Origin: Asparagopsis taxiformis
Taxonomy: Eukaryota > Rhodophyta > Florideophyceae > Bonnemaisoniales > Bonnemaisoniaceae
Direction of reading: 5' to 3'
DNA: 64,000 nucleotides
NCBI GenBank assembly: GCA_030407315.1
Contig: JALQPE010000613.1
Coordinates: 1 to 64,000, forward strand
Below are positions 1,143-36,200 of this stretch, piece by piece. The notes under the pieces were generated by a model. That model searched no databases and was not told the origin of the DNA. It saw nothing but the letters and a program-made list of their open reading frames with translations. Positions within the stretch are counted from its first letter, which is position 1. Every line of letters starts with the position of its first letter. The position numbers and the translations under genes were made by a program.

Positions 1143-1182
1143 CCCTAATCCCCCTAATCCCCTAATCCCTAATCCCCTTTAT
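1143..1182. repeat. Short interstitial telomere island
   Basis: Four or five CCCTAAT/CCCCTAAT/CCCCCTAAT units separated from the main tract by ~130 bp of unique sequence. Same orientation as the terminal tract. It is probably a remnant of an earlier chromosome end or a repair insertion. Confidence 0.85.
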
Positions 1183-5150: not shown

Positions 5151-5158
5151 AAGCATTG

Positions 5159-6935: not shown

Positions 6936-6959
6936 CAGTGTCTGGGAGTGGTGGATGAG

Positions 6960-8470: not shown

Positions 8471-8474
8471 TCGA

Positions 8475-9718
8475 ATGAAACCCTGGAAAGGTTTTATAAC
8501 GGTTGAAAGTAGTGGCAGAGAAGTAGTGGAGAAGATTAATTCTCCCTCAGCTAGCGAGACAATGATCACTACTGCTCAGTACAGTTCGCCTGAAATGCAA
8601 GTTGATCCTCGCAAAGTGAATGTCAGAAGTCGTTCACAAGTGGTTGAAGAAGTCTGCAACGATGAAGCAATTCGTGCGAACAGATTTGGTAGCAGAAAAC
8701 TCGAAAGGGATCGGGGATACTGATCATCGCATTGAAGAGCGCATTTTATTCGTCCTTGTTGACTTCCATGACGACGTGATAGACAGAAGAAGTATGAGAA
8801 CCAAGAACGGGATGTTTACAAACAGTTTTTATGACAAACTGGAATATGTTACGGGGGCAAAGGCAATTCATCTTACCAAGGCCGAAGAGGAAAGAGAACG
8901 GAGTCGTATGACCCCCAGAGAAATAGAACAAGCAGCTGTTCTTGATGCAAAAAGGAAAAGAGTAAGAATCTACTGTCGCAGAAGTAGAACAGGAAGTTTC
9001 TGCTCTTGTGGAGCAAGAACAGGAAATCACTCCAATTGTCGTGGCTGAAGAGTTGATCCTGCTGTTGCCAAAGCGGTAGAAGAGGCACCTCTCAGCACCT
9101 CAAAAGAAGCAGGAGACTGTCTTGCTGCAGCAAGAGTCGGAGAACAGAAACGTCCTGCTAAACGTTTTGCTGTGCTCCAAAAAGAACAGGAGCGTCGTGC
9201 TAGGGATAACTCTCCGGGAAGGATTGTCAGAGAAGATCGTCCTAAGGGAAGGAAACATAGAAGCGATACGCAAAGCGTGGAAATCAACTTGGACAATAGT
9301 GGTCGCATGGACATAGACCCGGCTGGAAAAGGAGACCATGTTGAAGTTGTGCAGAACCGCTCTGTGATACTGAAACTTCGAATCAGGACGCCAGAAATTA
9401 GCAGCACTAGCCCGGATAAGGAAGGAAATGAAGATGCTGAAGTGGACGAGGATAAATCGGTAAGAAGCAGGAGTTCCGGTGGAAGCGATGAAAACAAGTC
9501 CAGGTTGGATAAGAAGCGAAGAAGATAACCCAAGATGCTCTGAACCCGGTATGCCTGATAAAAAATGAGACTGAGCCTCTCCGGGAAAAGAATAGGAGAT
9601 TCAATGCAGGGAAACGAACGACTGGAGAAGAAGTACTACTTTTCACTGATGAGCAAGAAAACTCCCTTTCAGACGGCACATTTGCTGAAAAAATATTTGA
9701 GAAGTTGCCTTTATGCAT
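8475..9718 (+). pseudogene. Broken gene of unknown function in element 1
   Basis: Three successive + strand frames (8475-8723, 8620-9048, 9172-9528) and a tail to ~9770 read as charged, low-complexity protein rich in Glu, Arg, Lys and Ser. The composition looks coding, but frameshifts lie near 8700, 9050-9170 and 9530. Visible features are an acidic/basic middle (KAEEERERSRMTPREIE), a basic RLDKKRRR segment and a more hydrophobic tail ending near CIPSSW. I recognise no domain. Its place just inside the left terminal array is like that of the intact 507-codon ORF in element 2, so it could be the decayed protein of this element. That is inference from position only. Confidence 0.45.
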
Positions 9719-9877
9719 TCCTTCCAGCTGGAGAGTGAAGTATTGTATCGCAGGAAATATAAAATACTAAAATACTAAATTCCTTATGAGCAAGAGAGGA
9801 AACGATGGCGGGCGGTACTGGAATAGAACAAGAAGGCGATGAGCGTAATGACGCAGTCGTCTTCGTCTGCAACATTG

Positions 9878-9913
9878 AGAGAATGAGGAAGGCTTAAGCC
9901 TTCCTCATTCTCT
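9878..9913. repeat. 36-bp perfect palindrome
   Basis: Zero-spacer inverted repeat centred on GGCTTAAGCC, with arms GAGAATGAGGAA and TTCCTCATTCTC. It would extrude as a hairpin. Similar unrelated perfect palindromes recur across the window. Confidence 0.95.
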
Positions 9914-9949
9914 GTAATTGCAGCAGTGGCAGTTTCGACGGAGCGCTGA

Positions 9950-10330
9950 CAGAAAAGTCATGGTAACGATCGTAGTGATGACTTTGCTGTGAGGCAACAA
10001 ATCATTACAACAGTCACGATTTTCTTACCCCGTATAAAAATTCTGCCGCCAATGTAATGGCAACGTTTCCTTACAGCAGCCACGATTTTTACCCGATAAA
10101 AAATTTCTTGGTGATTTTTACCCGGTAAAAATTCTTCAGTCACTGTAATGGCAACGGTTCCTTACAGAAAAGCCATCGTTACGATGACTTTGCTGTAAGG
10201 AAACAAATCATTACAGCAGCCACAATTTTTACCCGGTAAAAAATTCTTCGGCCACTGTAATGAAAACGTTTTCTTACAGCAAAGTCATCGTAACGATGAC
10301 TTTGCTGTAAGCACCTATTGTAGACGGCTT
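9950..10330. repeat. Palindromic MITE-like cluster 1
   Basis: Contains the palindrome made of TTACAGCAAAGTCATCG and its complement (best copy ~10277-10310), plus several copies of TTTTTACCCGGTAAAAA embedded in an ATTCTTCGGCCACTGTAATG context. Related clusters lie at 11070-11225, 11970-12260 and 13984-14265. No coding capacity. Confidence 0.85.
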
Positions 10331-11069
10331 CTGCTGTAAGCGGTTGGGAGTTTAGTCCCTCTCTCACCTTGGGAAGGATAGGAAGGGAAGTGTGAAGTCG
10401 GAAACATCGCGAGCGGTTGGTTTGGACGGGTGTTTACGGCTCTGGGGAGCACTCTGCGTTACGCTCAACCGGGTCTGAGCTGGCTGCAATACATGATATC
10501 GCAGCAAGAGTGCACAAAATTTGTGCCACCATTTTCTCACGGCAGAGACTCGGACGGCCGAGATCGGACCTCGCTGAAAAGAGCTAGAAAAGGTCTGGAG
10601 TACATCCAAGACCACTGGAAAGGTACTATCAGAAGTTTTCCTGAACATGCGGGGGGCTTTCCTCACCGAAATCGAGCATAGCGGTTCTGCGACCAAAGCT
10701 TACTCATGAAGGAGGTAGGGTGCTGGGTACCACACCAACCATAGCTACTTACATTTGCAGTGTACTCTAGCAATCTGCTTAGTATTCTACTTCCTCACTG
10801 TACAATGATTTTCAGGAAGTAGGATATGCTCTGGGCCTAGCACGGGAGAGGAAGAAGGAAGGATAGGCATGCAGAAGTATAGAGGCAGTAGTATGTGAAG
10901 ACAATGGCAGTGGTAGAGAAGTATTTCATGCACCAAAGGGGCGGGCAGAGTGAGTGACACTAGAGACGCGGTGCGCAGGGCGAAGGGAGGTGGAGATGAT
11001 GGAGGACAACAGACATGAGAGCGAGGGTTCAGACCAACGGCTCACAGATGGAGCAGTTTGCTAGGGATG

Positions 11070-11225
11070 CTTACAGCAAAGTCATCGTTACGATGACTTT
11101 GCTGTAAGGAAACAAATCATTACAGTAGCCATGATTTCTTTACCCGGTAAAAAATTCTTCGGCCACTGTAATGAAAACGTTTTCTTACAGCAAAGTCATC
11201 GTAACGATGACTTTGCTGTAAGCAT
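11070..11225. repeat. Palindromic MITE-like cluster 2
   Basis: Two TTACAGCAAAGTCATCG palindromes flank one TACCCGGTAAAAA unit, the same arrangement as cluster 1. It marks the boundary between two ~0.8 kb repeat units. Confidence 0.85.
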
Positions 11226-11969
11226 CCCTGGTAAACTGCCTCAGCTGTAAGCGGCTGGGAGCCAGATCCCTACCTCACCTTGGGAAGGGTGAGCAAGGAA
11301 TTGTGAAGCCGGATAACATGGCAAAGGGATGGTTTGAACGGCTGTTGGCGGCGTTGGGGAGCACTCTGCGTCGTGCTCACCCAATCTGTGCTGGATACCC
11401 TGCCTGGTACGGCGGCAGGAGTGCACAAAATTTGAAACACAATTTTGTCAACAGTGAAATTCTGATTGTCGAAACTCAACCTCCCTAAAATGAACTAGAG
11501 CTGGTGTGAGCACCTCCACGACGTCTGGAAAGGTACTGACAGCACGTTTTCAGAGCATGGTGAAGCTGTCCTCTCTGAGATCAAGCATAGAGTATCCGTG
11601 GCCAGATTCTATTCCTAGTGCCATGTGGCACAGTGGCCACACCAAATTGCCCTTTTTAGCACACTATAGATTTTTGCTACAAGGAATCTAGCTGTCTTCT
11701 ATACTAATATAGTTGGTAAGTAGGCAAGCCTAGGATTGTAGGACTATCAGGAAGGATGGGAGGGTAGGTACGCAGCAACATGAAGGGGATAGTATGAGTA
11801 GACTATGGCGGTGGTAGACAAGGATTCCACTCACCGAAGGGTCGGCTGGAGTGACGCCGGAGTCGACACAGGAAGGGAGGTTGAGATAGGCTGGGATAAA
11901 GCAGGATAAGATACATGAGAGAGAGGGTGAAGCAAGAACGCTTACAGCTGAGGCCGTTTACCACGGGTG

Positions 11970-12260
11970 CTGACAGCAAAGTCATCGTTGCGATGACTTT
12001 GCTGTAAGAAAAGAAAACATTACAGCAGGCACGATTTTTTACCCGGTAAAAATTCTTCGCCCACTGTAATGTTTCCTTTTCTTACAGAAAAGTCATCGTA
12101 ACGATGACTTTGCTGTAAGTAAACGTTTCATTACAGTAGCCACGATTTTTTACCCGGTAAAAAAATTCTTGGTGATTTTTTCACCCGGTAAAATCCTTCG
12201 CCCACTGTAATGTTTTCTTTTCTTACAGTAAAGTCATCGTAACGATGACTTTGCTGTAAG
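11970..12260. repeat. Palindromic MITE-like cluster 3
   Basis: Three TTACAG...CTGTAA palindromes alternate with three TACCCGGTAAAA units. One ACCCGGT unit is duplicated side by side (12145-12195). Confidence 0.85.
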
Positions 12261-13139
12261 CATCCCTGGTAAACTGCCTCAGCTGTAAGCGGCTGGTACC
12301 TTGGTGCCTCTCTCACCTTGGGAAGGGTGAGATAGGAATTGTGAAGTCGGGAACATTGTGGAAGGATGGTTTCGACGGCTTCGGGCGGCTTTGAAGAGCA
12401 ATCTGTGTCTTGTTCACCTGGCCTAAACTACCTAAAATGTTCAGTATTGCGAGAGGAGCACGCAAAATTACAACCACCATGGTGGTGGGAAAATGCATTT
12501 TCTCACGACAGAGATTCTGGCGGTCGAAACTCAAACTCGTTAACATGGACTAGGGTTGGTGTGAACACCTCCAGGACCTCTGGAAAGGTACTACGTGCAC
12601 ATTTTCCGAGGCTACAAGAAGCTGGTCTCTCCAATATCAAGCATAGATTATCGGTGCGCAAAATCTACTCCTGGTGCTGTGTAGCACATTGACTATACAA
12701 AACCGTCCGTTTCCCGTTATAATAAACTATACTCTCAAGTAGCTAGTAATCTAGATATTCACTTTACATCGATGGTTATGAAGTAAGTTAACCTAGGATT
12801 GAAGGACAGAAGGTAAACGATAGGATGGTAGGCATGGGGTAAAATGAAGGCGGTGGTATGAGTAGAATATGGAAGTGGTAGACAGGCATTTAATGCACAG
12901 GGGGGGCGTGTGAAGTGACACCAGAGGCGCAGTGCGTCACAGGAAGGGAGACTGGAATGATGAAGGAGAACTAGAGACATGAGAGATAGGTTGTTTAGGC
13001 ATGCTTCTGGCTCTATTATATAACTGCATTGCTCCTCTATAGGCTACGCAATCCACTCCAGCAGTTCTAGTTAAAAATGGACTATATGGATGTTTCATTT
13101 CAATATCAGCATTGTGCAGTTGAGCCTCTTCAAGGTCCG

Positions 13140-13900
13140 AAAACTTGTCCAGAGTACGCTTCCAGGCCACTTGAAGGCATCCAGAACACTTGCACTTCGT
13201 TCTTACAAAGTTCAATTTTGGCTATCACATCTCCAATTGTGGGAGTCTGGTGACCAAAAATCGATGCATTCTGTCAGCCCTAATGGGCAAGCCTGCAGCT
13301 TTACGAACTCATAGAACACTTTTCCGTACTCCCTAGAGCCACTCCAACCCTTACAGACCACTTGCACATCATTCGGACAAAGTTCAATTTTGGCCATCAC
13401 ATCTCCAGTTGTGAGAATCTGGCGAGCAAAAATTAGTGAACTCCGGAAGCTCTACCTCGCAAGCCACCAGCTTTCAGGGCGAATAAAACCGGTTACAGTA
13501 CTCCCCAGACCCACTCCAACCCTCCCAGACCACTTGCACTTCGTCCCGACAAAGTTCACTTTTGGCCATCACATCTCCAGTTGTGGGAATCTGGTGACCA
13601 AAAATCGATGCATTCTGTCAGCCCTAATGGGCAAGCCTGCAGCTTTACGAACTCATAGAACACTTTTCCGTACTCCCTAGAGCCACTCCAACCCTTTCAG
13701 ACCACTTGCACATCATTCGGACAAAGTTCAATTTTCACCATCACATCTCCAGTTGTGAGAATCTGATGACCAAAAATCGATGAATTCTACTAGCCCTTCC
13801 ACGCAAGCGAGAAGCTTTGAGTGCAATTAAAACAAGTTTTAGTGCTCCCTAGAACCACCCCAACCCTTTCAGACCACTTTGCAGCCTTTTTCGCGGGGTC
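13140..13900. repeat. ~175-bp tandem repeat, four units
   Basis: The units begin near CCACTTG(A/C)A. Each contains AAGTTCAATTTTGGC(T/C)ATCACATCTCCA, GTGGGAGTCTGGTGACCAAAAATCGATG and TACTCCCTAGAGCCACTCCAACCC, with graded divergence. The ORFs running through (13090-13314, 13390-13680) only reflect the repeat. Confidence 0.85.
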
Positions 13901-13983
13901 TGAAATCGTCTCCTTCTTCTTCCCGAGTGAGAAACATCAGTCCCTCTCATATGCTTACAGAGAAGTTGGTTTACCATGGTTTC

Positions 13984-14265
13984 TTACAGCAAAGTCATCG
14001 TTAAGATGACTTTGCTGTAATGTTTTGTTTTCTTACAGCAAAGTCATCGTTACGATGACTTTGCTGTAATGTTTTGTTTTCTTACAGCAAAGTCATCGTT
14101 ACGATGACTTTGCTGTAATGTTTTGTTTTCTTACAGCAAAGTCATCGTTACGATGACTTTGCTGTAATGTTTTGTTTTCTTACAGCAAAGTCATCGTTAC
14201 GATGACTTTGCTGTAATGTTTTGTTTTCTTACAGCAAAGTCATCGTTACGATGACTTTGCTGTAA
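13984..14265. repeat. Six-copy array of a 37-bp palindrome (49-bp period)
   Basis: Palindromes start at 13984, 14033, 14082, 14131, 14180 and 14229, each TTACAGCAAAGTCATCG-TTA-complement and separated by TGTTTTGTTTTC. The first copy has one base change in its centre; the others are almost identical, implying recent amplification. Decayed half-copies continue to ~14470. Each unit could form a 17-bp stem with a 3-nt loop. Confidence 0.95.
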
Positions 14266-14763
14266 GCAACCTGGGTAAACTGCCTTTGCTGTAAGAAAAC
14301 TGAATAGCAGTTCCGACAGCTTGTCCTGAGAAAGCAAATCCGCCTTAACGATGACTTTGCTGTAAGAAAACAGAGAACTTACAGTTCTGACAGCTTGTCC
14401 TGAAGAAAAAAATCCGCCTTAACGATGACTTTGCTGTAGGAAAACAGAGAACTTACAGTTCTGACAGCCTGTCCAGAAAACCCTTCCTCTCGCTCCAGTT
14501 ATAGTCTGTTACCTATCCTAGAAACGTTCCCAGTCCGAGGTATCGTACCGCTTGATCACTTATGTACTATACTTGTGCTGCCAAAGATATTAAAATAATC
14601 GCTGCTGGAAAGCATCGTTTCTGTCTGGGTGAAGACGCTGGACGACGGAGTGATATTGCGGGCGGAATACACACGATAACATTAATCACTACTCCCCTAA
14701 TCGCCCAACTTGAGTATACTTAGTAAAGAAATTAAGATGACTCTTCCCCGATATGATCGTCAA

Positions 14764-15100
14764 TCATTCCGAACCTACACTCTTCAATGCTTTAGCTCTG
14801 TCGGCATCTTTCCACGGACGTGAAGGCTCCATGATCAGTAACGGCGATTCAGTCGGGGAGATACGCAGTGTCGAAAAGGCCGATTGCCACACCGCCTGTA
14901 TGACGTCCCAATTCTGCACGGTGGCAGCGCCGGTTCTTTCGTCAAAGGCGTAGACGTTTCGCACGTCGTGACAGGCGTCGGGCGACGTGAGAATATAATC
15001 GCCATCGAGATATTTCCAGTGTACAGAACTTGGTCGTCGCGCGACACGAGCAGCGTGAAACCTGGCTGATTGTCAGCCGACGATATGCGCCGTACATACG
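14764..15100 (-). pseudogene. Actin-related protein fragment (ARP6-like)
   Basis: The clearest frame (14764-14964) contains NWDVIQAVWQSAFSTLRI followed by PTESPLLIMEPS. This resembles the actin-fold block in which a 'hWDxxxxhWxxhF' segment precedes 'PxxxPLLhxE', and is closest in my memory to ARP6. Upstream the frame continues as DGDYILTSPDACHDVRNVYAF but then shifts into another frame (14835-15368). No complete gene is present. ARP6 belongs to the SWR1 chromatin remodeller; here it looks like a captured fragment, collinear in strand with the kinase and UFD2 fragments nearby. The family call is by motif only. Confidence 0.4.
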
Positions 15101-15722
15101 CTGCTATGTGGCGGATGCGCGTGTCCGGCGTCGAGAAGAATGCATTATTGCGGAGACGTTGTTGTTGCACCGGTTGCAGTTGCAGAACGAGACATAATTG
15201 CAGCAGGACAGCGAGTATGAGCACGCCTTTGGTGACAGACGCCCAGCCGAGTTGGTCTGGAGCTATCTGCGGGGGAAGGCCAGATCGCGTCGGCATGAGG
15301 ATTCGAGTGCCGGTCAGTTGTGGTATGAGTGTACAAGTGTATGTTATGTCAAGAGATGCAGCTTGCATCAGTGGTCGAGCGCGTACAAGTTACCAAGTTA
15401 CGCTCCGTGAAATATTGATGCTTCCAGTCGTTGAACGTACGCTGCACACCCACCAGGATAGAACGATACGCGCCGCGCCATCTGTGTGACACGCGTGTCT
15501 ACAACTTGCACGCCATGTACAATTCTGCACATCAACATTGAGAATACACCAGTCCAACTAAATTGCCGTTCCGCAACTCCGAAATATGTCCCAACCCGTA
15601 AGCTCTGGCCGCACGCCACCCCCAAACGTCTCATCACCAGCGTGGCGCAACGCACCTCAAGTTTTACATGATGCTGCTATGACATATCCGAGTCGATCTA
15701 ATTCATGTAGCATACCATTAAA

Positions 15723-16178
15723 CTATCTAAAGCCTACAACAGCAATACATACCCCAAATCTACAGCACTCACATGCATACCAACTCACCCGTCCTCTTCG
15801 CCCGTTGTTGCAAAACGAACCATGCGCTCTAACAGCTCTACTAACTTCAACCTTGTTGCACGATGTGATTCTCTCTACATGTAATTTTCGAATATCACCC
15901 GCACTTTCACATGTCGTCGTACCTCCATCCTCCTCGCACTCCGAATCACCGCTTGATCCAATAGAACGTCCATCAAACCACCTCTCGCCCTGCGGCGTCC
16001 TGTAAACCGCGCTGCAGAACGAATACCCCGCAAGAATACCGTCACCGTGTTTTGACAGTGGTGTTCGTGGACGCTTCATCAGCGGCGAACTCAACGCCAT
16101 GTGCTTGCTGACGTTGCTATCGCTCAGCGATGACACGTACTGTATGTCTTCTTCAACATCAACCAACAGGATTGCCAA
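15723..16178 (-). pseudogene. ORF fragment of unknown origin beside the kinase fragment
   Basis: A 151-codon minus-strand frame. The N-terminal half (AILLVDVEEDIQYVSSLSD, then KRPRTPLSKHGDGILAGY, then CSAVYRTPQGERW) has ordinary protein composition. The C-terminal half is Cys/Arg-rich and unconvincing. It lies just downstream of the kinase and UFD2 fragments on the same strand. I do not recognise the family. Confidence 0.3.
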
Positions 16179-16424
16179 CGCTTTCGCCTGCTTAATCTCC
16201 TTTTTCGTGCGGTTCCCACTCGACCTTGAACTAATTGTAGCCTAACTGTTCAGATCTTCGACGTGCTTCTTCAGTGTGTTATTTCTTGAAGACTAGTTAC
16301 CAAGCACGATACAATCCACGCTTTTGAACCATGGGTGTTCCTTCACTGCATTCCAGCCATCCTCACCAGTTCCAAGACGTTCTGACACATCACGGCGAAG
16401 AAGATGTGTGATTAGATGTCTCAC

Positions 16425-16604
16425 TTGCTGAGACAAACTTCATGGATAGTAGATGGGCGCCTTTTCTATACGCTGGTAAAAGTAGTTCCTGTCCTTTGAA
16501 TAGAACGGTGTGTGACCGGGACAGTATCTCGTACGAAAGTATCCCAAACGCCCATAAATCTATACTGGTGTCGTAGCTCTGACCACCGAGCATGCTAGCT
16601 TGCA
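16425..16604 (-). pseudogene. Protein kinase domain fragment (subdomain IX region)
   Basis: The frame beginning at the UFD2 junction reads [20 protein letters not shown] followed by YEILS. This is the eukaryotic protein kinase region after the activation loop, including the DxWAFG/DLWAFG signature of subdomain IX. No ATP-binding or catalytic-loop part is present. It is joined directly to the truncated U-box of UFD2, giving a chimaera of two unrelated genes. I infer fragment capture by the host element. Confidence 0.6.
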
Positions 16605-17650
16605 ATTGAACGGATCCACCTTATCGCTCAAAAGGATGCGCGAGATTACCGCCCGGTCCATTATACTACCAGACGTCGGTAGTCGCACCGGATTCCGCAT
16701 CAAACTGCTCATAATCGGGTCCAGAAACTCGTCTGGAATCTCCCCGAGCTCCACTTCAGCATCTTGGTCCTCCTGAAATGCACGAGCCGCATCCTCACTC
16801 ACCCGCTGCAACGCCTCCAATTCCCCCGATTCAATAGCTTGCGATTGAGTCCAATTTTCAACGCACGCTCAAACAATTCCTTCTTGTATGATCGTCCGTC
16901 GCGTCCAACCGCCTCCGCGAACAAACGCTCCCCGTCAAAGTGCAGATACGTTTGCATAATCCGTGTCAGTAACTGCTGTGGTTTCCAAAACACTTTCTCC
17001 GGTTCCGACACCGCCAGATCCCGACACCGCTGCCCGCACAGTCCGTCCAGAAGATATATCTCAACTATAGTTGAGCATTTCCGCAATGCGTGACACCATT
17101 CCATCGCGTAGGAATATACGCCGCACAACCTTGTCCTCCGTTGTGATCCACAACAATTTCACATTGTTATTCACCAGTTGATTGTAGCTCTTCGCCAAGC
17201 CATCCAATCGCTGCAACCGCTCTTGTTTTTCCACTTTCTCCTCATCCGTCAGCGCCTCCCTCTCAGCCAACCCCCGCGCATCAGCATTTGCATCATATGC
17301 ATCTCCTCTAAGTCATCCAGCACAGAGTCCGGCAAATGGTTGGCATCGTTCAACACTATAATTACAAACCTCAGGAATCGTGTCTCATCCCTCGCCTCCG
17401 CTCGCACAGACTTGCGATAGTCCTCCATGCGTATGTGATCCCGTATGCTCGACATCTACGTACAGGCGAAACAGCGCCTCCGGTAGAAATCTTCTTGACA
17501 ACTCGTGACTTGCAAACAATCCCTCCGTCACCGGGTTGACCATCCGCCCATCGTCCTCGTCATCATCAAACCCACTGCCCTTTGGGAATATTGTGGACAG
17601 GAATTCCACTAATTTCGAACGTAGATACGGATTATTCACATGCAGCGGTG

Positions 17651-17680
17651 ATGCAGCTCCAGCAATTGCTGGAGCTGCAT
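17651..17680. repeat. 30-bp perfect palindrome in UFD2 fragment
   Basis: Zero-spacer palindrome centred on GCAATTGC with arms ATGCAGCTCCAGCAA and complement. It sits exactly where the UFD2 frame changes, before the conserved NPYLRSKLVE block. Confidence 0.95.
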
Positions 17681-17791
17681 TTGCAAACTCACAGTGTCTT
17701 CAAGTAGAGCACTGCTACCATCAACAATCTGTGGTGCATAACGCATCGCCGACAGTAGTACCGTTGTGATAGTTTCCACTGCATGTTCAGG

Positions 17792-17854
17792 CAGCGAAGC
17801 CATGGCTTCGCTGTTACCATTACCTCCTACACCCGCGGGTGAAGGTGGTAATGG
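17792..17854. repeat. Two adjacent palindromes in UFD2 fragment
   Basis: 17792-17813 is a perfect 22-bp palindrome centred on CCATGG. 17817-17854 is a 38-bp palindrome centred on ACCCGCGGGT with two mismatched pairs. Together they replace the UFD2 linker just upstream of the LPEHAVE motif, without closing the reading frame. Confidence 0.9.
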
Positions 17855-18141
17855 CAATGGAAGTAGCGACTCTCGCTTCGGTTCCGCCCTATCTTCTTCA
17901 TTAGCCACTCCGCATCAGCTGTCACAAACCTCACAAGAGCTGTCAACATTTCATTGTTCTGTAAATATACATCACAGCACAGTTCCGCCTGCACCAAGTT
18001 GTCAAACTGCCTCTTGAACATCACCAATTGAGCCTCTTGGTAATCTGGTAACGCATTCTGCTGTTGCGCACGTTCCGTGTCCGAAATCATTTCCTTCAAC
18101 CGATGTAACGACCGTCGCAGCGTTCTTCGTACATATGTACG

Positions 18142-18191
18142 TGGGATTCATTGCAGTTGAGAACATATGTTCTCTACTGCAATGAATCCCA
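18142..18191. repeat. 50-bp palindrome (one mismatch) in UFD2 fragment
   Basis: Centred on ACATATGT. One arm is UFD2 coding sequence (GGGATTCATTGCAG, encoding GFIAV) and the other arm is its inverted copy, after which UFD2 homology resumes. A second small palindrome, GTACATATGTAC, follows. Confidence 0.95.
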
Positions 18192-18419
18192 AATGGACGG
18201 ACCGCATCGAAAGTCAGAAACACTCCGTCACAAAGCTGAAATCTTTGCTTACAGCCGGAGCAACCAACTGTATTGCCGACTCACTCGCTCTGCCTTCAGA
18301 AATCGGCCCTGCTCTCGCCGTTGAGCTCCTCCCCGCCTCACGTACAGTCACTTCAAGTTGTCGCGCCAGAGACTCTTGTGCATTCTCGTAGAGGAGAGCT
18401 TCAAAGGTGAGAATGTGGA

Positions 18420-19450
18420 GGGCAAAGCAGATGGGCCGGGGTCGAGGAGAAGGGTAACCAGTGGTTCGGGCTGTCTGTAAGCAGGCTTACAGTCTGAGGA
18501 CAAGGCCAGTTGGGGTAGTGAAGCGAGAGATAAACGCTCATTTTTGCTAAATCATTGCATATGGCGCCACGTGCTACACATCGCACTTTCTATATATACA
18601 AGTCTTTTCTCTATCGAGCGTCACTCCCAATGCTTCGTAACGTCGGTGCACACTCTTCAACATCTCCCACCACGATATTCTCAAGATGATGTACCGTCCT
18701 CCTCCCGCTTGCATTCAACTGAATACGTGGATATCCATGTGGATATACGTACGTATGGATGCCATTTCTCGACATGGCTACTATGCGATCATGAGCGATT
18801 GGCAGTGGCAATGGGAAATCAACTGGGAAACATGTAACTTCGTCTTCCAGCCATGAATATCTCCATTTGCAAATAAATTAAGCACTAGGCATCCTCTTGC
18901 TTTCCGAATACGTAGAAGGCCGGATTGCGCAACTCCTTTAAACAGCGACGTGTCGTTGACGTGGCGGAATGTTCATAATCCGTGTTCTTCGTGTATTCAC
19001 GTGATTAGTTGTACAACTATTGCAGCACAAAGACAGTTTTTGAAATAGGCTTTCCAAAATTCGATCGAATAGCCTCGAGGCTATGAGGGCTGTTTGGATC
19101 ATCGAAGATACTAATGCTCGCGCAAGACGTGTTGCGTACTTCTACCAACAGGATATCGCACGATATCCTATTGGTAGAAGAACAGGCTAAGGTTTGCTCA
19201 CAGAGCTTTTGTAGCACTGAGTCCATAAGAAGCATCGAAGTGACTTACAGGCCTTCTTCGCACATTTCATATACTTTGCTCCCATCGGAGTACATTCTAT
19301 CTGCTCTCCTCTAGAACTTATCCTCCCTCATACTAACTTCACAGCATCCTTCTCTCTGTAAAGCTCCATCAAAATTACTATATCGTATACCACACACCAT
19401 TCCAATATTTTCTTTCACACTAACACTATGCTCCTTATTTCCTCTCAAGT
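18420..19450. other. Gene-free right part of element 1
   Basis: Short ORFs on both strands without recognisable motifs. Apart from the inverted repeat at 19139-19180, I see nothing in it that I can name. Confidence 0.5.
19139..19180. repeat. 42-bp inverted repeat with 2-nt spacer
   Basis: Arms CTTCTACCAA-AGGATATCG and complement, with one mismatch. It lies in otherwise gene-free sequence of element 1 between UFD2 and the right terminal array. Confidence 0.95.
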
Positions 19451-19454
19451 CCAC

Positions 19455-19812
19455 TCCACCAGACAGTGTTGTGAACCAATGCACGGTACTACCCGCAGAC
19501 AATACAATTTGCTATCTACAATACTGTCTACAGACTTCCCCAGACAGTGCAGTAATACAATACAATGTACTGCCTCAGACAGTAAAATGTACTGTCTGCA
19601 CATACTGTCTGGCGGCAACACTTCCGGACAATAAAATTTACTGTTCTGGACAGTAGATTTTACTGTTTTTGATATTGTCCAGAATTAGTGCCATTTTACT
19701 GCTGCAGCAGTACTCGGAAATTTCCAGACAGTAAAATTCACTGTCTCCGCGCACTGTCTTGGCCAGACAGTAATTTTTACTGTCTCAGACAGTAAATTTA
19801 CTATCTTTTTCC
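19455..19812. repeat. Right terminal array of element 1 (CAGACAGTA palindromes)
   Basis: About a dozen CAGACAGTA/TACTGTCTG motifs in both orientations, such as AGACAGTAATTTTTACTGTCT. They share their core with the left array 13 kb away. TLH1 coding sequence begins within ~10 bp of the last copy. Confidence 0.85.
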
Positions 19813-22800
19813 ATTCCCAACACCGTAGTGAAGTATATCGTGATTCTGCTCCCAGCCTCCGCCGAATTGTTGCTCCGAGAGAGCAAACGGGAAGACATCA
19901 ATCACGGATGTTCCACAAATGCTCTAAGGAATCTTCAGCTCGCACATACGCCGACCACATCGCTCGTCTGGTTTGCTTCACTACAAGACTCTACAAGAAT
20001 GATAAGAAGCGATCATTAGAAAGTGTCCCAGATGTGGGCTTCAGAAACTTTGCATTGCCTGCCTTTGTGGAGCATCGCGTTGCACACTATGTTCAGCAGC
20101 TTGAAGGCCTCCCTGAAAGTGCACCAGCTTCGAAGCGTCAGAAGATGGATCAGAGCACGGATACAGTCAATAGTGATCGAGTATGGAGCGCGAAGGACAA
20201 CGCTTTGCATGAGCTGCTTTGTAGTCTGTTGATGGTCAACCTTAGCAAGGATTCCAATGATGAAATATCCAAATCTACCACTTCATCTACTTCTCTTGTA
20301 ATTCATCAGTTTATTGCGACATTTTCGGTAGCAGAAGACTCACCCCCTGAGAAGAAGACTACTACTACAGGTCGTCGGTTCAAAAGATCTATGGAATTGT
20401 CTCCATTCCTCGCTGCATATGTTTATTTCTGTTCCATGTGTGGAATGGTTGAGTTGAAACGGGACGAGATTTTCCCAACCTTCCAGAAGCCTGGGGCTGC
20501 GCTAGACGTTTCTGCAGTTTTCAATGTCTCTCAGAATACTTCATTTTCTCTAGCTCGCTGGCTTCTCACGGAGTGCCAGTCAATTAATACGCATTCACGC
20601 CCACAGACAAATTTCATAGATTGCGTCCGTCATAAGCAATGTGCCATTGTGAACGGAAGTGAGATATCAGTAGACGATATTCGGAAGGCAGCTGAGAGCC
20701 TTTTGACAGAGGCTGATAATATGCTTCATGGTCCAGTTCTACATAACGCAACCGTGCCAGCAAACTATGATACACTCTTGGCCAATCTCATTGATGATTT
20801 CACAAATGCCGCAGAGGGTTTCTCGTTCCTCCAACTATCAGGATCTAGAAAATGGGCGGATGAAATGGCAGCTTTGCTACCAGATCATATAATTTCAAAT
20901 GCGGTACTTTGCCATCAGTGGTTTACCCGAACTGATCATGATGATTCTGTGCCAATAGGTCAAATGACCGGTAATGATACGGAACAGTGGAAGCTCCGAA
21001 ACTGTGCTGCTCAGAAATGGTTACAGGCAGTCTACAAGCTAAAAAAGGTCTTGTTCGTCTTGACACATATTCTTTCTGGCGGCACGGCGAGAGCCTCTGA
21101 GATTGAAACATATACATTCCAAAACAGTTCCACCAAGTTCCGGAATGTTTTCATCAGTCAAGGTGAGCTCTATTTCATTTGTGACTATGGGAAGAGCGAA
21201 TCTTTGCGAGGATGGCAGAAACCGATCGTGCGGGTAGTATCTGGTCAGCTTGCTACCCTCTGGATCCTGTATTTCTCATGCGTTCGTCCCTGGGAATGTT
21301 TCGTAATAGGAAAAGTCAATCAACTTGTTTGCACCACTGCTCATAATATACATTTGTTCGCTGAAGACAACAAACCACTCAAGGCTGATAAACTTCGGGT
21401 CATTTTCAATTCCATTCTTCAAGAGCAAGGTGTTAAGATCACTTTTCAAACTTATCGACATTGGCAAGCAGGAATAGTTCGTCGCTACGTTGGGAAGCAG
21501 CACCACAGTGTCTTATTCATGGCTATGGAAGAAGAAAAAGACGTACAAAGGGATGATGTGGAGTTGTTTTTCCCCTTGGATGAGCAATCAGGACATACCC
21601 ATGCAACTGCCGAAAAGTTTTATGCCCGCTCAAGTTGCTTCCCCATTGGTGTTCAGCTGGAAAAAGTTACAGAATTCCGTGCAGCATCACTACAATGGGC
21701 GTCGTTCATCCTCAACAGACCTCCCCCTGATTGCATTTCAGAACAACCAAACCCAGGAGATGTAGTTGGGAATTCGCGAGCTCCAGTCCAACACTCTACG
21801 AAACTTATTGCCGAAACTTTTTCCGAGTTACGATTGAGTTTGGAGAAAGAGATGGAAACCTTTGTCGAAGAAGTGAAGGATGATCTCGTTAGATTCTCAA
21901 AGAGAATTCGCGGTGTGGAGAGTGACAACCTCAATGCATATCCTGTCTCGCATAAAGACATAGCCTTCATTTATCAAATGGTTCAAAAAATTCGAGATTT
22001 ATCTGGAGACCCCAATGGCCGCTTCAGAAGTCCTCTGCAGCTGTACACGACTATCGCAGTCCTTGATCGGGAAGATGACATCCTCATTATTATGCCGACA
22101 GGATCAGGGAAGTCTTATCTCTTCATCCTACCGAGTTTCATAGAACAAACGGCACCCATGCTGTGTCCCGGGCAGCTGAATCTCGTCCAGCCGTTCACTA
22201 TTGTTGTCCTTCCTCTGGTTGCACTAGTTCAAGATATGGTTAGGAGATGCACAAATATGGCAAAAAATCGAATGGAGGTTCTCACCTGGGGTCAAAGAGG
22301 AAGGGCAAAGAGTAGAAGCGGAATTGGAGGTTTGATTATTATATCTGCTGAGCATGTGTTGACAACAGACTATCAAGATCTCGTTACATATTTGGTCTCC
22401 CAGAAACGGCTAAGCCGAATTGTTGTCGACGAGGCACATCTCACCGTCCAGTGGTCTACTTTTCGGGAAGCAATGTTGGAATTGAGGCATTGTCTAAGGC
22501 CTGTTGCAAGCAATGTTTCAGTTCCTTGCATTATGATGAGCGCTACTGTTCCACCCGAAATGGAGCAAGCTGTGAAGCTTGCTCACGGAGCTCCTTTTGC
22601 AAAAACTGTAAGAACCTCCACTGCTCGAAACAACCTATCATTCCAAGTCGTGCGGTGTGAGACTTTGCCATTCAAACGCATATACAATACAATGATGGCT
22701 AAATCAATTTCTGTCCTCACTGAAGAGACTGAGAGATTATTTGAGAAAGCTGCGGAATCTACAGATTCGGCTGTGCTCTCACAGATAATTGTCTACTGTG

Positions 22801-24110
22801 GTACGCATGCAGTTGCAGACTTTCTTCACGAGGCGTGGCTCGAGAATTCGGCACTTCCCGCTTTCACTATTGGGCTTCGGTACCATTCTGGAATGAGTGC
22901 AGAGGAAAGAAGTGAAGTCATGAAGAGATGGTTCAATTACCAACATGAGGGGAGGGCAGTAATGATTGTGTTTTGTACTTCTGGTTTCGGAACTGGAATA
23001 GATTCTCCGCATGTTCGCACAGTAATTCATGTTGGGGGATCCCGCTCTCTGGTTGAATATGCTCAAGAAAGTGGTAGGGCAGGGAGAAGTGGGTCTCCAG
23101 CTACATGTCTTGTGATATTCAACGCGAAGTATTTCCATACAGTCTTGAAACCGACGTGGGCTTCCTTCGGGAAAGATGAAATTAATGGCCATGCCAACTA
23201 TGGTGGCCATTTTGTGTCATGGGCTGAACAATCGGTTCAATGCCGTCGACAGCTTTTATATTCGGCAGTAGATGGATCTTCATCAGATATATGTGCAGTT
23301 CTTTCGGATGATTCTTCGGTTTGGTGCGATGTATGTAAGTTTACATTTCCTACCACTGAGCATGATACGCTTCGATTACCTTCAGACTGTCCAATTCGAG
23401 AATACAAGACAAAATCAGGCTCCCAGATTCATGGAGAGAAATGTGGAAGAGCCCCTCTCAAAATACAAGCTGAAACTAAGAATGCTACCAGAGCCAAGAA
23501 CACCGGAGAAATACTTGGAAGCACGGTTTCGAGAGACATTTCATTCTGTTCTGCAACATCAAGAAAGGTTACAGCACAGATACATGAATTTCATCAGCGA
23601 ATATCCAAGCTTTCTGGAAAGTGTATAGTGTGTATTGTCGAAAACAATGAATGGCATGATACGAAAAATTCCTGTCTGAAGAACAGATGCTTCCGATGCC
23701 TTCTCCCAGGACATGACGCAGCAAAATGTCCCGCTCTAAGCTCATCCGCTATAGAATCCCACAAAATTTCATTGGGTATTCGTTTTCTCTGCTACGCATG
23801 TCGCATGAATGAGTTCAAGGGTGAGCCGCTTCATAGGGACGGAGAGTTCGGATCGAGAAAGCGATGTCCGATTTTGGCGTCCCTTCATCTCTGTTTCCTG
23901 CTAGCTTCAAGATCTTCCAGTCGCAATGATCTCGAGCATGCCGAACCTGGGTACATTTGCTGGCCTTCTGTTATTTCCCAAGCTCCGGGAAAACACGTCA
24001 ATGCCGCTAAAGAATTGTTAGACTGGGCAACCTCTACCTCAACAAACGGCTCTCTGAATCTGATGGATGTTGTGAAGGTCTTTTTCAGTTTAAAGAATTC
24101 TCCAGCCTAG
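19813..24110 (+). CDS. TLH1 main part: tyrosine-recombinase-like + RecQ helicase + CCHC protein
   Basis: The ATG-initiated frame runs 19908-24110 (1400 codons) and stays open upstream to the element 1 array; it joins in-frame homology to TLH2, so ATG 19908 is internal. Residue numbers count from there. A recombinase-like core has Arg395 (GGTARASEI), Tyr-Arg-His (R517/H518) and Gly-His...Tyr (H563, Y572, spacing 9 as in tyrosine recombinases). The RecQ part has Walker A TGSGKS (731-736), DEAH (841-844), SATVPP, FGTGIDSP and QESGRAGRSG (from 1053). A CCHC knuckle, CX2CX4HX4C, lies at 1261-1274. Telomere-linked RecQ helicases are known from fungal subtelomeres. No stop or frameshift interrupts this part. 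The 5' zinc-finger part is at 5.2-6.2 kb, cut off by element 1. Ends with TAG at the position of the TLH2 stop. Confidence 0.9.
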
Positions 24111-24144
24111 TCTAGTAGCTCAGGTAAATACAGAACTGTTGTGA

Positions 24145-24663
24145 TTAACCTCTGCTGCGAATAAGCGCATAATACGTTGAATTACCACTTCTCTTCTCCC
24201 GACCGAGTCGAGAACACATTGGCAAAGTGCTGGTACTACAGGCCAAGTGGTAGGGACATGGCACATTTTTTAGCTTCAGCTCAGTGTCGCACAGCTCGTA
24301 GAGTAGAGCAAAGGCATGGTAGTCGAAGACCTCGTCTGCAATCAATTCTGCCGCAGAAAAAAAATTATCTAGTGAATTCTGATCAGTGCCTCCCCGCAAA
24401 GCGAATCTCGTCCAGAATATCGAAAAAATTAGGAATTACGATTTTGTCCAAATCAAAGCCGCATTGAATAATTTTCTTCTGCCACAAAAATTTGAAAATC
24501 CATCAATCCAACATTCTAACGCATACTCCCTGAATGAAATATACCTAGCGTTGTTGAAATGTTGGGGAGAGGGGTTGAAACGGTAGCGACACGTTCGCTC
24601 ATGCAGCGCGAGCGCATAAGCATCTACGCAGTAGTAGAAGCACCCTTCATACTTGCATTCCAT
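24145..24663 (-). pseudogene. Degenerate zinc-finger ORF convergent to TLH1
   Basis: Two minus-strand frames (24436-24663 and 24145-24399) read as one broken protein. The first starts with a Cys/His cluster (CKYEGCFYYC...HERTC) that could be a C2HC finger. The second contains LDNFFSAAELIADEVFDYHA, which has normal protein composition. A frameshift and stop separate them near 24410-24440. I do not recognise the family. It ends 35 bp from the TLH1 stop, tail to tail. Confidence 0.35.
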
Positions 24664-30234: not shown

Positions 30235-33200
30235 ATGGAAACAATGTCGAAGGAGCTACAACATGCGATTGGTAGCTCCTCGCTCTCTGGCTCACTGGAA
30301 CATTTTCACTACGACGCGAATGCATCCGTTGTTGTCTGTAATCAGCACCAATCCGGGTTTACGAACATGGCCGCGATCCGTTCCCATTTGCGCGAAAAGC
30401 ATGGCTGTGAAAAAGTCGTCAACGCAACGATTCGTGCATCAATTATGGAGAAATTCTGTAAGAAACCGAATTGCAATGATGAATCATCATCCATTGACCT
30501 CAAGAAACTAGATCAAACTCCGAAGTGCCTTGGAGGGAGAGAAAACCTCTCTATCTTGGCGGCAAAGTATCACAGCACAGATGGGAATCACCTCAAGCGT
30601 GGGGAAAAGCTGGAATGCATCAAAGGACTAGAGATTTCCAAGGGGAAGCAATGTAACACTTGTTCATTTTGTGCAGTTAGTAGTGATGCAATGATCTCCC
30701 ACATGCATCTGAGGCATGGCTTATCTGTCGAGGATTCTGAACGATATGTTCAGTACGCACCCTCTGTGCATCTTCAAACAATCGGTCAAGCAAGAGCTCT
30801 ATGGTACTTCCCGGTAAAACCTCACAGTGTTATTCATCATGGTAGTAACACTGGCAAGGCTTTATCCTCAGAAAGATGTGCGGAGAAAGGAAGTTCTGCA
30901 TCGAAGCTCGCAATTAACGTGCGCAAACAGCCCAAAAAAGTACTGGATCGGGTATGGGTAGAAATGCAATCTCTACACCCTTCCACAATTCTCGGAAATC
31001 CCAAAGACGGAGAGTCTGCGAAGACTACTAAAAACCGGCAAGGAAATGAAATAGATCCTATTTCTGAAGATTCCTACAGAGAGAAGGGAATATTTTTGAC
31101 AATCTGTGGGTTCGAAGAGATCCTCTCCGCCATGGGCATATCATCCCTAGATGTCGTTCCGTGTCAGCTACTTGAGAGTTATAGATTCACAAAAGTGAAA
31201 GGAATGAAATGTGCATTTGATGAGGAGAGCACAGTAGTGACTCACATCGAAGACTACCTCATGAAAGGATCACATGCTACTTTCTCCTCTGCACCCTTTG
31301 TCAAGAAGATTGTTCGACCTTCCGATGGTGAGAATAATACATATCGTTCTCCTTTCACGCCAGTTACTACAAAAGGAACAGTGAAAAACTACGCTCAGTC
31401 TATTTCTCGTTTGGTTCTTTCTGTATTCGAATGTCCAAGCTTTCTAATGCACCTTCAGCGGATGTGACCAAAAATGATCAAGCAAGCATTGCGTTAGATG
31501 GAAAATGTTCCGTGGCAAACTTATTGACTCGCATTCCGCCGCACATAATTTCGCTGACAAGAGAATACTCTCTGTCAAGAAGGGCTCTATCTGCGCAGAA
31601 TGGAGATGTCATGAACAAACGTAGAATCACAGCAAAACATCCGAATATGTCTAGAAAGACATGGGAACAAAGTGACATGAGCCTCCATCAATTGCTAAGA
31701 GCTGTTTTGCTTGAGACTCACGACAACAGTACTTCTGCAGAGAATATATTTATTAGGATGTTCATTTCTCTTTTTAGCGTTCATTGCGATAAGAATTCTC
31801 AGCGGAGAAGATTTAGGAACGCTCATGAGATGTCCCCAATGCTGGCAGCAATACAATATGTGACTAGCATCACCGCAATTGTGGAACTGCGATCACATGA
31901 TCTATTCTTCCCAACAGAGGGGGAAGACTCCAGTTCGAAGCACAATTCAAACAGGGAATCTTTTCTTCGAAGCTATGAGCCGTATGCAATTGAACGTGTC
32001 AAGAATTCATTCTGTTTGAAGTCAAATACAGCCCTCTGCTACGTTCGCGATGTTCTGGATAACTGCATGAGAGTCATGAAAAATGATACTTCAAGAATCC
32101 GTTCTCTTGCGTGTGCTTCTCATCCTAAGTGCGCTCTTGTTGACGGTAATTGTCAGGGATCAGTCCTCTAGACCTCATGGTAAACACTAGATTCCTGTTC
32201 TTATAACACCATACCCCGACCAACCAATAAGATAGTAACATTCCACAGAGACCAAAGCTCCCAACTACAAGGGAAGCTTACAGTAACCACTCCTACGAGG
32301 CTACTTACAGCTTTCCACATACCTTACACCACCTAGGAGACACTTGAGCAGGCTACTTACATGTTATGATACACTTACAACACCTGTCATGTGACTGACA
32401 CGGTTACTTACAAGATTACATGGCTTTTTCAGCCACTTTCGCCCCACTTACAGGGTTACTTACACACATACGCCCGTGTGACAGGTAACTTACAACTGTA
32501 ACTGGCGGAAACCTAGTTTTTCAATGAAATTTCAACTGTAAGCTTACATGTAAGAAATGTAAGCTTACACTGCAAGCCGCCCTGCGGGGCCTGGTCGCGC
32601 CCGGCTCCAGGTTTCCACGTGTCAGGGGTTCCTGCCGGACTCTTACAAGTGTGACATTGCTGGACTCTTACACGTGGCCCTCCGTGTCACACTCTCCTTA
32701 TGACCGTTTCCAGATCCGCCACCACCAACAGTATCTCCCATTCTCCTCTCCTATTGGTTGATCTCCCGATGCCTACTCCTCGTAGCTCCTCGTAGTTACC
32801 CTTCATTTTACCCCTCCTAGAGCTACCTCCTAGTCTATATAAACTACCCTCCGCTCCCCACCTCAGGGATTCGGAGGTACCTTCGACCGGAACACCTTCT
32901 CCCAAGTTGTGCCTTAACCCCCACACTACAGAAGGTTCAGTTTTTCCTTGAGTCCATGCTAGTGATAGCTCATATCATTGGGGGAGGCACAGCACGGGCT
33001 ACAGAAATTGGAACCTATCAATGCCAAAATGGGCCATACTCGGCTCGTAACGTGTACATAGCACAGGGAGAAGTAGTTCTTGTTTGCAGGTACAACAAGA
33101 CACAAGCAATAACAGGGAAACAGAGGATAATTGCAAGGGTTTTGGACCAGAAATCATCTCAGTTGTTCCTGATATACTTCATACTTGTTAAACCGCTGGA

Positions 33201-36200
33201 GGTCTGGCTGGTGGAAAAGCTACACGGAAAAAAGAGCTGAGGAACACTCTAGAATCCTTTTCGTTGATGGCGGTGTACGATTCTCTGATGATAGAATAAG
33301 AGCAGTTGTGCAAGCATCATTTGCTGCAAATGGTATACCTTTCAACTTCATCCAGTACAGGCACTATCAAGCAGCAATGGCAGAGCGGTTTCTGTCATCA
33401 AGATTCGTTCGATCTTTGTATGAATCTGATGACAGTATTGATTATCCAAGCACAGATCAATACCATGATCAATGTTCAATCTTGCATGATCAGGCCGGTC
33501 ACTCAGCAGAGACGGTGAGTAAGACTTATGGAACTGGGGCACATACCATGAAAGGTATCAGTACTCATCAGCTCGCTATGTTCCGAGAGGCTTCAATCGC
33601 ATGGCAAAGGCTCCTTGCTAGAAGCCTGCATGAAGATAATGGGAATAAAGCAAGAAAACGGAGCCCATGGGAGGAGGATTCTGAACGTCCGTTGGAAAAA
33701 CAAGCGAGAGAACATGCGACAAAAACTATGCTCCTGCCGTTAACGAACCAGCCGGCTTCTGGTTTCACAGAACAAAATTTACGGAAAATTCTTTCAGAAG
33801 AAATTCAGGCTTCTTTAGCAACAGCTCTTCCTCGCAAAGCAGGCGAAGGTGGCATTATGCAAGTAGAGCCGGCAAATGGCGCAGAACCTAAACTCTCAAC
33901 CGAAAAGAACGGATCATACCATGCTCATCCTGGAGGATTATCCGGAACGAAAAGGAAATTTACCTATGAGAATCCAGGCGAAACACTGATTGTAAATCAG
34001 CTGCCTCAAGCAGGCAAAGAGCATAGTAACTCATCAGCAAATATTTTCATTGGAAGGCGCTGTAGGGTTTTGCGGAGGAAAAATGTTGTTCTTGATTGGA
34101 AACGAATACTCCCAGATCTGCGTTCTATGAGACAGGATACAGAGTCTCAATTCAAGAGCGTTACCCAGCTGGAAGGAATTGCAGAGGCTTTGGACATGAA
34201 AGAAGATTTCATAGCTGTTATGCCTACGGGTTCCGGTAAGTCTGATATTTTCCTTCTCCCTTCTTTTATCGAGACTGGAAAAAGGACTACAATTGTTATT
34301 GTACCATTGGTGTCATTAATGATGGATCTGAAGACCCGATGTGAGGAATATGGAATAACGGCTGGAACTTGGGCGTCTAGGGAAACTGCAGATCTACAAC
34401 TTCTGATTATATCTGTGGAACATACTGCCCTTCGAGAATATAGTATTCTTGTCGGGGAGATGGCCAATGCTGGCCGACTCTCAAGAATAGTCGTGGATGA
34501 AGCGCACCTCACGATTCTATGGTCTTCTTTCCGAGAGCCACTGGAAAGTCTTTCTACTAACTTGTGCCCGACACCGTTCCCAATTCAAAAAATTTTGCTC
34601 AGCGCAACTGTTCCACCGTCCCAAGAGGAGAGCTTGGCAAGAGCACATGGATTATGAAACTTTGCTGTCTTAAGAGCACCGACAGTGAGGTCAAATCTTT
34701 CCTATAGAGTTGTACTTTCCATTCGAGAAAATTTTGTTTCCGAGTCAAACTCACTCATGAAGAACAGTATAGAAGTTATTCATCAAGAATTTGAGCGTTT
34801 CAAAAGAGTGAATGTGGAAGGCAATTTGGGGAGCAATACGACCACTGATATACTTCGAAACCAGATGCTAGTCTATTGTCCGACGCGAGGTATGGTTCAA
34901 GAGCTTGTTGCTCTTTTGCGTGAGGAAGACTGGCTGGAAGAAAATTGCTTGCTTCAGTATCATGCTGGCATGACAGAAACAGAGAGAAGTAGTGTCCAGA
35001 TGCACTGGAATAACTACAAAAATGGAATCTTGTTGGATGGCGTTACGAGCTGTCAGATTGTGATTGCAACAAGTGCCTTTGGGACAGGTATTGACTCTCC
35101 AATCGTTCGTAGTGTGATTCATGTAGCGTACGCTCGCAGCATCATGGAGTACGTTCAAGAAAGTGGACGTGCTGGAAGGGATGGCAAAGTTGCTAGGTGC
35201 ACAGTTGCGTACAGTAGGCGATTCTCTGACGGCAATTTGGATTATATCCGAAAGAATGTACCGGATTTATTGCAGGGGACGTTGAATGCAAGGGAAAAGC
35301 GATTAACAGGCAGTAATAATGACAACGAGAAGCACTTCAGATCATTTCAAGCTTATGCAGAACAGACTACATGCTGCAGGAGACAAGTTCTTTTCGGTTA
35401 CATGGATAATGAAAGGCCAGAACCATGCATGTTTCGTTGCTCAAGGGAGGATATGTGGTGTGATGTGTGCGCTAATGTAGACTTGAAACAGTCTATGTTT
35501 TCTCCTCCGGTGGAACAAGCATGTAATGCATCGCAGATTCCAAACAGTCACATCAAGGAAAAAACGAATCCTGCTTCACTCTCCTCACCAATGTTTCCAA
35601 AAAAGGGCTTAGTCGAAGATGAAAACGAGACTAAACCCTGCCATGTTCAGCAGAGCAATACTTTACAAATATCAATTCCAGGATCTTCCCAAGGAGGTGA
35701 ATGTATTTCTGGAAGTTATGAAATGAATCCAACAACGACGATTCTTAACTGTGCTGAGGCTGCTTCTTGTCTTGAGGTGACAAGAAACATTGTTGAGCGC
35801 TGTAGACTAAAATGTAGTCGACTTCTGAATAACTGCATGCTATGTTTTGCCGAAAAAGGAAACATACATGAGCACCAAAGGACATCGAGCTGTCTTCAAT
35901 TTAAGTGCCTTCGTTGTTTCCAGGATGGTCATGACTACGACAAATGTCCAATCTTTTCTGTGAGTGGTGCGGTTGGTAAGATTACCGCCAAGGAAAGTGC
36001 ATGCTATGCGTGTGGACTTCGAATGCTCAAAGGGAAAAACCTTCACGAGCGCTTCGAATATGGTTCAACGAAGAGGTGCCCTTGGTTTTATGGTATTCAA
36101 TTCGCTCTCACCAAGCTATGCGATCCTAGTTCTCAAGCCATTTTGAAACGTCATCTGGAATCTACAGCTGGGAGGTCCGCGTGTGATTGGCTAGAAGAAT

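Follow-up and report, generated by a model that had tools for sequence, protein, structure and literature searches.

The stretch of DNA analysed here (the window) comprises the first 64,000 nucleotides of contig JALQPE010000613.1 from the red alga Asparagopsis taxiformis and contains two telomere-linked helicase genes, TLH1 and the damaged TLH2. The assembly searched as its own genome amounts to 141.5 Mb in 3156 contigs, with the window's contig labelled C613. The main open reading frame (ORF) of TLH1 (19908..24110, plus strand) encodes 1400 amino acids and combines a tyrosine recombinase (YR)-like domain, a RecQ helicase and a CCHC zinc knuckle. The RecQ core (22020..23147, plus strand; residues ~705-1080) is matched by the Pfam families DEAD (E value, 2.3e-20) and Helicase_C (8.6e-13), and its closest PDB sequences are RECQ5 (2.2e-30) and then BLM. 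The knuckle, which a preliminary description of this DNA had already proposed, is genuine and has the form CX2CX4HX4C (23688..23729, plus strand; residues 1261-1274). The same description placed C2H2 fingers within 19813-24110, where there are none; the finger region is found in an ORF at 5009-6253, the displaced 5' part of TLH1. This N-terminal part (5009..6205, plus strand) encodes a C2H2/OrsD-like finger, and its open frame continues into an insert. The match to OrsD, of which we take DUF3505 to be the older name, has an E value of 0.0015 and scores 19.4 bits, under the Pfam cut-off.

The insert (6206..19830) is ~13.6 kb long, is bounded by perfect inverted ends of 13 bp (CACTACGGTGTTG/CAACACCGTAGTG) and carries numerous GACAGT(A) repeats close to either end; presumably, it is a CACTA-like element. 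It is lacking in all three copies that span the site, on contigs C2897, C2967 and C3011, which run straight from window position ~6205 to 19829. Judged from the sequence, the TLH1 gene is split, with the insert parting the OrsD/C2H2 N terminus from the rest. Part of the left end of the insert was also seen beside the truncated TLH1 copy in C740 (L029 339-1006), but not at the corresponding place in C2013. We read TLH1 as the larger portion of an OrsD/C2H2-tyrosine recombinase-RecQ helicase-CCHC protein encoded by a mobile unit of ~9.7 kb; to this explanation as a whole, including the mechanism set out below, we give even odds.

The domain ahead of RecQ (20601..21731, plus strand; residues 232-608) is predicted to have the tyrosine recombinase fold. 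For two predicted models of the domain, the YR/topoisomerase I fold accounted for the top 37 and the top 42 of 50 VIA-align PDB rows, and a Foldseek search of a separate library returned, among its top 10 rows, 9 entries named recombinase, integrase or DNA_BRE_C and 1 nameless entry. Fold comparisons of both models thus rank YRs first, and the structural match of residues 300-600 is to tyrosine recombinases and not to a different fold. Based on these models, TLH1 residues ~230-600 very probably adopt the YR fold, and the domain is probably catalytic as well.

The residues expected of such an enzyme are found at the positions that had been proposed for them. R395 (Arg I, 21090..21092), R517/H518 (Arg II and the next His, 21456..21461), H563 (His III, 21594..21596) and Y572 (the candidate nucleophile, 21621..21623) are all present on the plus strand, and K429 (21192..21194), which corresponds to the β2-β3 lysine and was not part of the signature given earlier, is likewise invariant. 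In a 13-row alignment, which includes three near-identical copies of one group (the C784 frame was examined separately), R395, K429, R517 and H563 are each retained in 13 of 13 rows, H518 in 11 and Y572 in 12, so that R395 and Y572 equivalents are kept and not lost in most homologues. Alignment A5 has 12 rows, each with 19-31% identity to TLH1; among its invariant positions are G391, R395, E398, K429, R517, Q560, G562 and H563, and Y572 is nearly invariant (90% or more). The His-to-Tyr spacing is 9 in TLH1; the exception is the relative P0008, with its Tyr one residue sooner and a spacing of 8. Many VIA-align fold alignments stop at residues 571-574, which we take to coincide with the Tyr of Cre and lambda Int. 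As described before, the usual box II His is lacking; Q514 occupies its position in TLH1. In relatives, the position three before Arg II holds Q, N, M, I, A, R or H, so that the family does not conserve His II; a His (or Lys) at this place is common but not universal among YRs and was treated as non-defining. Even the damaged TLH2 retains the signature, in separate pieces that bear GGTARATEI and YNKT, and YRHYQA and GHSAETVSKTY, respectively. Because R, K, R and H are invariant and Y is near-invariant in 12 divergent rows, and because YRs come first in the fold comparisons, we regard the residue pattern as more than chance. The proposed tyrosine recombinase-like core is supported by the predicted fold together with the kept residues.

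TLH1 lies within a larger unit (1179..24548, plus strand), about 9.7 kb long without the insert, whose 3' terminus, GAATGAAATATACCTAG (24532..24548, plus strand), is the same in every copy located. A genome search placed the terminal 437 bases of the unit (24112-24548) at eight sites, and at each of these the similarity stops at the same base, 24548. The 3' flank is readable at seven of these; C3011 has just 3 bases beyond. There are five distinct 3' neighbours, namely, those of the window, C2897, C2967 and C59 and one common to C740, C2013 and C2014, and each is itself repeated in the genome, so that its unoccupied counterpart can be read. AG precedes the joint in all five counterparts: GACACGAG|CGTTG for the window, ATTGAG|TTGCA for C2897, CCGCAG|GGATA for C740 (within a 3.13-kb tandem array), GTGGAG|TGCGA for C59 (in a repeat that recurs in C2123 and C255 at intervals of about 17-20 kb) and TCTCAG|GCGCG for C2967. 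AG makes up 6.3% of the dinucleotides in the window, and five chance matches would be expected about once in a million. On which side of AG the cut falls cannot be placed, since AG is also the last dinucleotide of the element itself. No poly(A) or simple tail is present at the 3' joint. One of the five counterparts is the opposite arm of C613, which is palindromic with a centre near 56.9 kb: window positions 24549-25500 recur at 88393-89345 and TLH2 recurs at 77-81 kb. Only one arm has the TLH1 unit; the opposite arm holds the same sequence without TLH1 and diverges exactly at AG|. This comparison is unaffected by whether the palindrome is a real inverted duplication or an assembly fold. Palindromic repeats were also observed in C2967. 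Separately, the 3.13-kb unit forms long tandem arrays in C2578, C2579, C865, C442 and C1114, and one TLH1 3' fragment is joined inside this unit.

On the outer side, the window opens with telomere repeats, (AATCCCCT)n, i.e., TTAGGGGA, which occupy the contig end (1..1015; 127 copies by Tandem Repeats Finder [TRF]); telomere units of 8 bases such as this one are uncommon. Short interstitial telomere-like repeats (1143..1178, TRF) directly precede the 5' limit of the TLH1 unit, TTATACCCC at window position 1179. This limit is shared by the window and C3011, with telomere-like repeats before it in the one and a satellite in the other. The 5' end of the unit is therefore defined in these two readable copies only, one of them with a telomere beyond. 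Other copies are shorter: C2967 stops 30 bases inside the 5' limit, C2897 is cut at about window position 5285, where telomere repeats are found, and C740 and C2013 are both cut at 23081. Coming from the telomere side, a TLH2-like end in C2677 has window positions 1059-1178 in common, and homology ends at 1178. There (L046, near 3044, reverse strand), the TLH2-like copy breaks off at window position 35653 and is followed by telomere-like repeats and the 1059-1178 segment; the 3' side of this copy faces the telomere-like repeats, opposite to the arrangement of TLH1.

The TLH family is larger than these copies. The genome yielded 61 TLH-family matches, which sort into several divergent groups, and family open frames of 1600-1913 amino acids are present elsewhere in it. 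OrsD-like, YR and helicase regions occur in one frame in C784 (1600 amino acids), in P0006 (1889 amino acids) and in a C143 frame; the scan covered all of C784 and part of the first of two C143 frames. The order within the single frames of C784 and P0006 is OrsD, YR, RecQ and CCHC, and in C2897, an OrsD-like part and the YR lie within one open frame of 1304 amino acids. The OrsD match exceeds the Pfam cut-off in C784 (39.2 versus 26.6 bits) and in the first piece of TLH2 (31.6 bits) and falls under it in P0006, C2897, the C143 frame and ORF 5009-6253. Relatives outside this genome are P0002, P0005 and P0006-P0009, of which P0009 comes from the ascomycete Pleurostoma richardsiae. Among the relatives listed, no protein bears the name of S. 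pombe, Ustilago, Magnaporthe, Fusarium or Agaricus. The YR domain is present in P0006-P0009, with no sign of it in P0065, P0070 and P0072 (7 of 67 listed proteins were read). In a scan of 72 proteins for GH-x8-Y, P0001, P0002, P0004-P0007 and P0009 were retrieved along with P0040, where the motif is out of context; P0008 was missed because its spacing is 8. An IMG/VR scan with P0002 gave five stretches that matched a pattern, none of which was confirmed. Paralogues B and C differ at 142, 119 and 252 sites at codon positions 1, 2 and 3, respectively, a skew in the coding sequence that fits protein-level constraint; dS is saturated for every pair of different groups.

Taken together, these features make the TLH1 unit look like a mobile element with a YR-helicase protein, located for the most part close to chromosome ends. 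The preliminary description had suggested a self-mobilizing, telomere-targeting element. Self-mobilization gains independent support from the AG joints and from the precise 3' end, and telomere targeting is supported in part: the window copy lies under a telomere (1-1015) and telomere repeats cap that of C2897, while the 3' joints are in dispersed and tandem repeats and not in telomere repeats. We propose that the fingers and the CCHC knuckle bind the element end, the target DNA or a nascent strand and that the YR nicks the target at the AG step through Y572, giving a 3'-phosphotyrosine. The AG common to element end and target would then serve as a short crossover that joins the 3' end of the element, and RecQ would unwind the element or the receiving end, allowing a strand to be copied or the junction to be resolved. 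Where this takes place at a chromosome end, trimming of the outer side and capping with telomere repeats could follow, leaving 5'-truncated copies. We infer each of these roles, that is, joining by Y572, AG as the crossover core, DNA binding by the fingers and knuckle and the opening or extension of the joint by RecQ; that the YR makes the 3' joint at all we judge an even bet. Our tentative broader reading, to which we assign a probability of roughly 0.4, is that telomere-linked helicases are transposition proteins rather than host helicases and belong to an unrecognized class of eukaryotic tyrosine recombinase element, whose OrsD-YR-RecQ-CCHC protein joins the 3' end to AG and which colonizes chromosome ends in at least this genome, an ascomycete and other sequence sources.

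Several observations weigh against a mobile element whose YR makes the joint. At the level of the domain, none of three Foldseek searches gave a match at an E value of ≤0.001 (the best was 0.0076), and no profile library searched names the domain: when the 10 rows of alignment A4 were all scanned with Pfam, PHROGs and NCBIfam, no recombinase family was detected, and the strongest stray profile match was that of one row to the nameless phrog_27952 (1.4e-4). A profile built from A4 had no match among PDB sequences up to an E value of 10, and the DUF3435 and phage integrase profiles matched none of the 10 rows up to the same value, although a divergent YR need not match them. Alignment of the family with seven bacterial and phage YRs by hhalign placed box I in register at a P value of 0.018 and a probability of 2.6%, a weak result, and alignment with XerD alone (P = 0.34) gave no support; neither was used to support the YR assignment. 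The region around the Tyr is modelled with a predicted local distance difference test (pLDDT) score below 50 in both models, and a conserved His II is missing. At the level of the joints, AG is the last two bases of the element itself, C3011 lacks AG at the end of its left flank, other repeat members at other loci supply four of the five unoccupied sites, and both flanks of one target were seen in no copy examined. Moreover, the shared 3' end in different neighbourhoods is seen for the TLH1 unit only. In groups B, C, D and E, the copies have common flanks, as alleles or segmental duplicates would, and because of this, these groups give no boundary test.

A fixed 3' end combined with 5' truncation also fits retrotransposition, and this, too, counts against the recombinase reading. 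A reverse transcriptase acting in trans, for instance, one encoded by the reverse transcriptase-like ORFs at 28593-29597, could copy a transcript whose 3' end pairs by way of AG with a 3' end exposed by a nick or break, leaving the YR unused. The truncated copies in C2897 and C740/C2013, the 2-base identity at the junction and the presence of such ORFs only 4 kb away (RVT_1 E value of 0.0017, under the cut-off) agree with this proposal. However, the joint has no poly(A) or simple tail, the two longer copies have the same 5' limit, truncation toward the telomere is explained equally well by loss of the chromosome tip, and no reverse transcriptase match is found in the protein of the unit itself (among the Pfam matches of TLH1); we consider this route unlikely. 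About equally unlikely, in our view, is a real YR that works in chromosome-end maintenance, nicking and joining broken or recombining ends in the manner of a topoisomerase IB or a telomere resolvase, with the unit spreading by break repair between ends.

An unrelated helical domain ahead of RecQ that resembles a YR by chance would account for the absent profile matches, the lack of a Foldseek match at an E value of ≤0.001 and the low confidence with which the catalytic tail is modelled. Two predictions and several fold comparisons nevertheless agree, and the catalytic positions are kept in rows with 19-31% identity to TLH1, so that chance resemblance seems highly improbable. The 3' end CTAG and the helicase are reminiscent of a Helitron-type rolling-circle element. 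DHX repeat codes, which we take to denote Helitron-like elements, have been used for related sequences. In the accessible text of PMC5576322, they are applied to similar Colletotrichum repeats. However, no Rep/Helitron family is found among the Pfam matches of TLH1, C784, P0006, C2897 and the C143 frame, insertion is at AG|N (with N being C, T, G, T and G) and not at A|T, and the 3' end has no marked fold (z = -0.39). With neither A|T insertion nor a 3' hairpin seen, a Helitron is a reading that we rate very low indeed.

TLH2 (30235..36322, plus strand) consists of an OrsD piece at 30235-31467 followed by a frame break, another frame break near 33200 and an in-frame stop at 34655-34657. Its stretch from about 32170 to 32925 is not common to the copies in C908 and C2677, and its YR and RecQ residues are still recognizable. 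Between the two genes, on the minus strand, lie the reverse transcriptase-like ORFs mentioned above (26923-29597 in total; RVT_1 E value of 0.0017, under the cut-off), with telomere-like repeats nearby at 27910-27939; presumably, they resemble a telomere-associated Penelope-like element. Further along, a 118-bp tandem repeat is present in 14 copies (47458-49117) and recurs in an inverted arrangement in C2967, and an ORF of 740 amino acids (60528-62750, minus strand) has weak similarity to N6/N4 DNA methylases (E value of 0.007) and to GmrSD_N (E value of 0.00075), both under the cut-off. No Rfam match was found in the window at gathering scores.

Compared with known systems, TLH1 shares with the tyrosine recombinases XerH, XerA, Cre, XerD and lambda Int and with topoisomerase IB the predicted fold, the ordered R, K, R, H and Y residues and the His-to-Tyr spacing of 9. 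It differs from them in having no conserved His II, in being fused to RecQ and zinc modules and in being missed by the sequence profiles searched. Cryptons and Starships (the latter with a DUF3435 captain) are eukaryotic mobile units that encode a protein of the YR fold; TLH1 has no DUF3435 or Crypton profile match, carries a helicase in the same protein and is joined at AG at its 3' end. As far as the accessible text on the FoTeR elements goes (PMC12857005), the telomere-associated non-long-terminal-repeat elements MoTeR and FoTeR resemble the TLH1 unit in their chromosome-end location and many truncated copies, whereas the TLH1 protein has no reverse transcriptase match.

Subtelomeric RecQ genes are described for Ustilago, Magnaporthe, Metarhizium and Agaricus in the accessible text of PMC7473861, whose reference list traces such RecQ-like genes back to 1998. 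Likewise, the available portions of other papers describe the telomeric RecQ paralogues of Ustilago (PMC7593156), an OrsD domain in Ustilago UTASb (PMC10532341), the TLHs and FoTeR elements of Fusarium (PMC12857005) and, for Colletotrichum, telomeric repeats with a helicase and DUF3505 that lie in one orientation and whose full-length copies are solely subtelomeric (PMC5576322). Judged by these descriptions alone, the fungal TLHs (Ustilago UTASa/UTASb and those of Magnaporthe, Fusarium, Agaricus and Colletotrichum [DHX_G198 type]) resemble TLH1 as multicopy subtelomeric RecQ-like genes, with OrsD reported for UTASb and DUF3505 with a helicase and one orientation relative to the telomere reported for Colletotrichum; they differ in that the descriptions mention no recombinase domain, exact 3' end or AG sites. 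The word "recombinase" is absent from the accessible text of PMC7473861, PMC10532341, PMC12857005, PMC5576322 and PMC7593156, and "integrase" appears once in that of PMC5576322, among retrotransposon domains. A YR in TLH or RecQ proteins was not described in the titles and abstract openings among the matches listed, a coverage that excludes preprints and most subscription papers, and the YR-helicase fusion in TLH proteins is likely new to the literature.

The role usually given to subtelomeric RecQ-like genes is telomere maintenance (PMC10532341 and PMC7593156, as far as accessible). If the reading favoured here is true, the multicopy state of TLH genes, their variability between strains and their concentration at chromosome ends would be explained by the YR domain together with a mobile 3' end that is exact, and the role of these RecQ-like genes would become testable. 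The unit would then represent a new design of YR element that unites helicase and recombinase in a single protein, and would provide a candidate enzyme for joining DNA at a site as small as AG.

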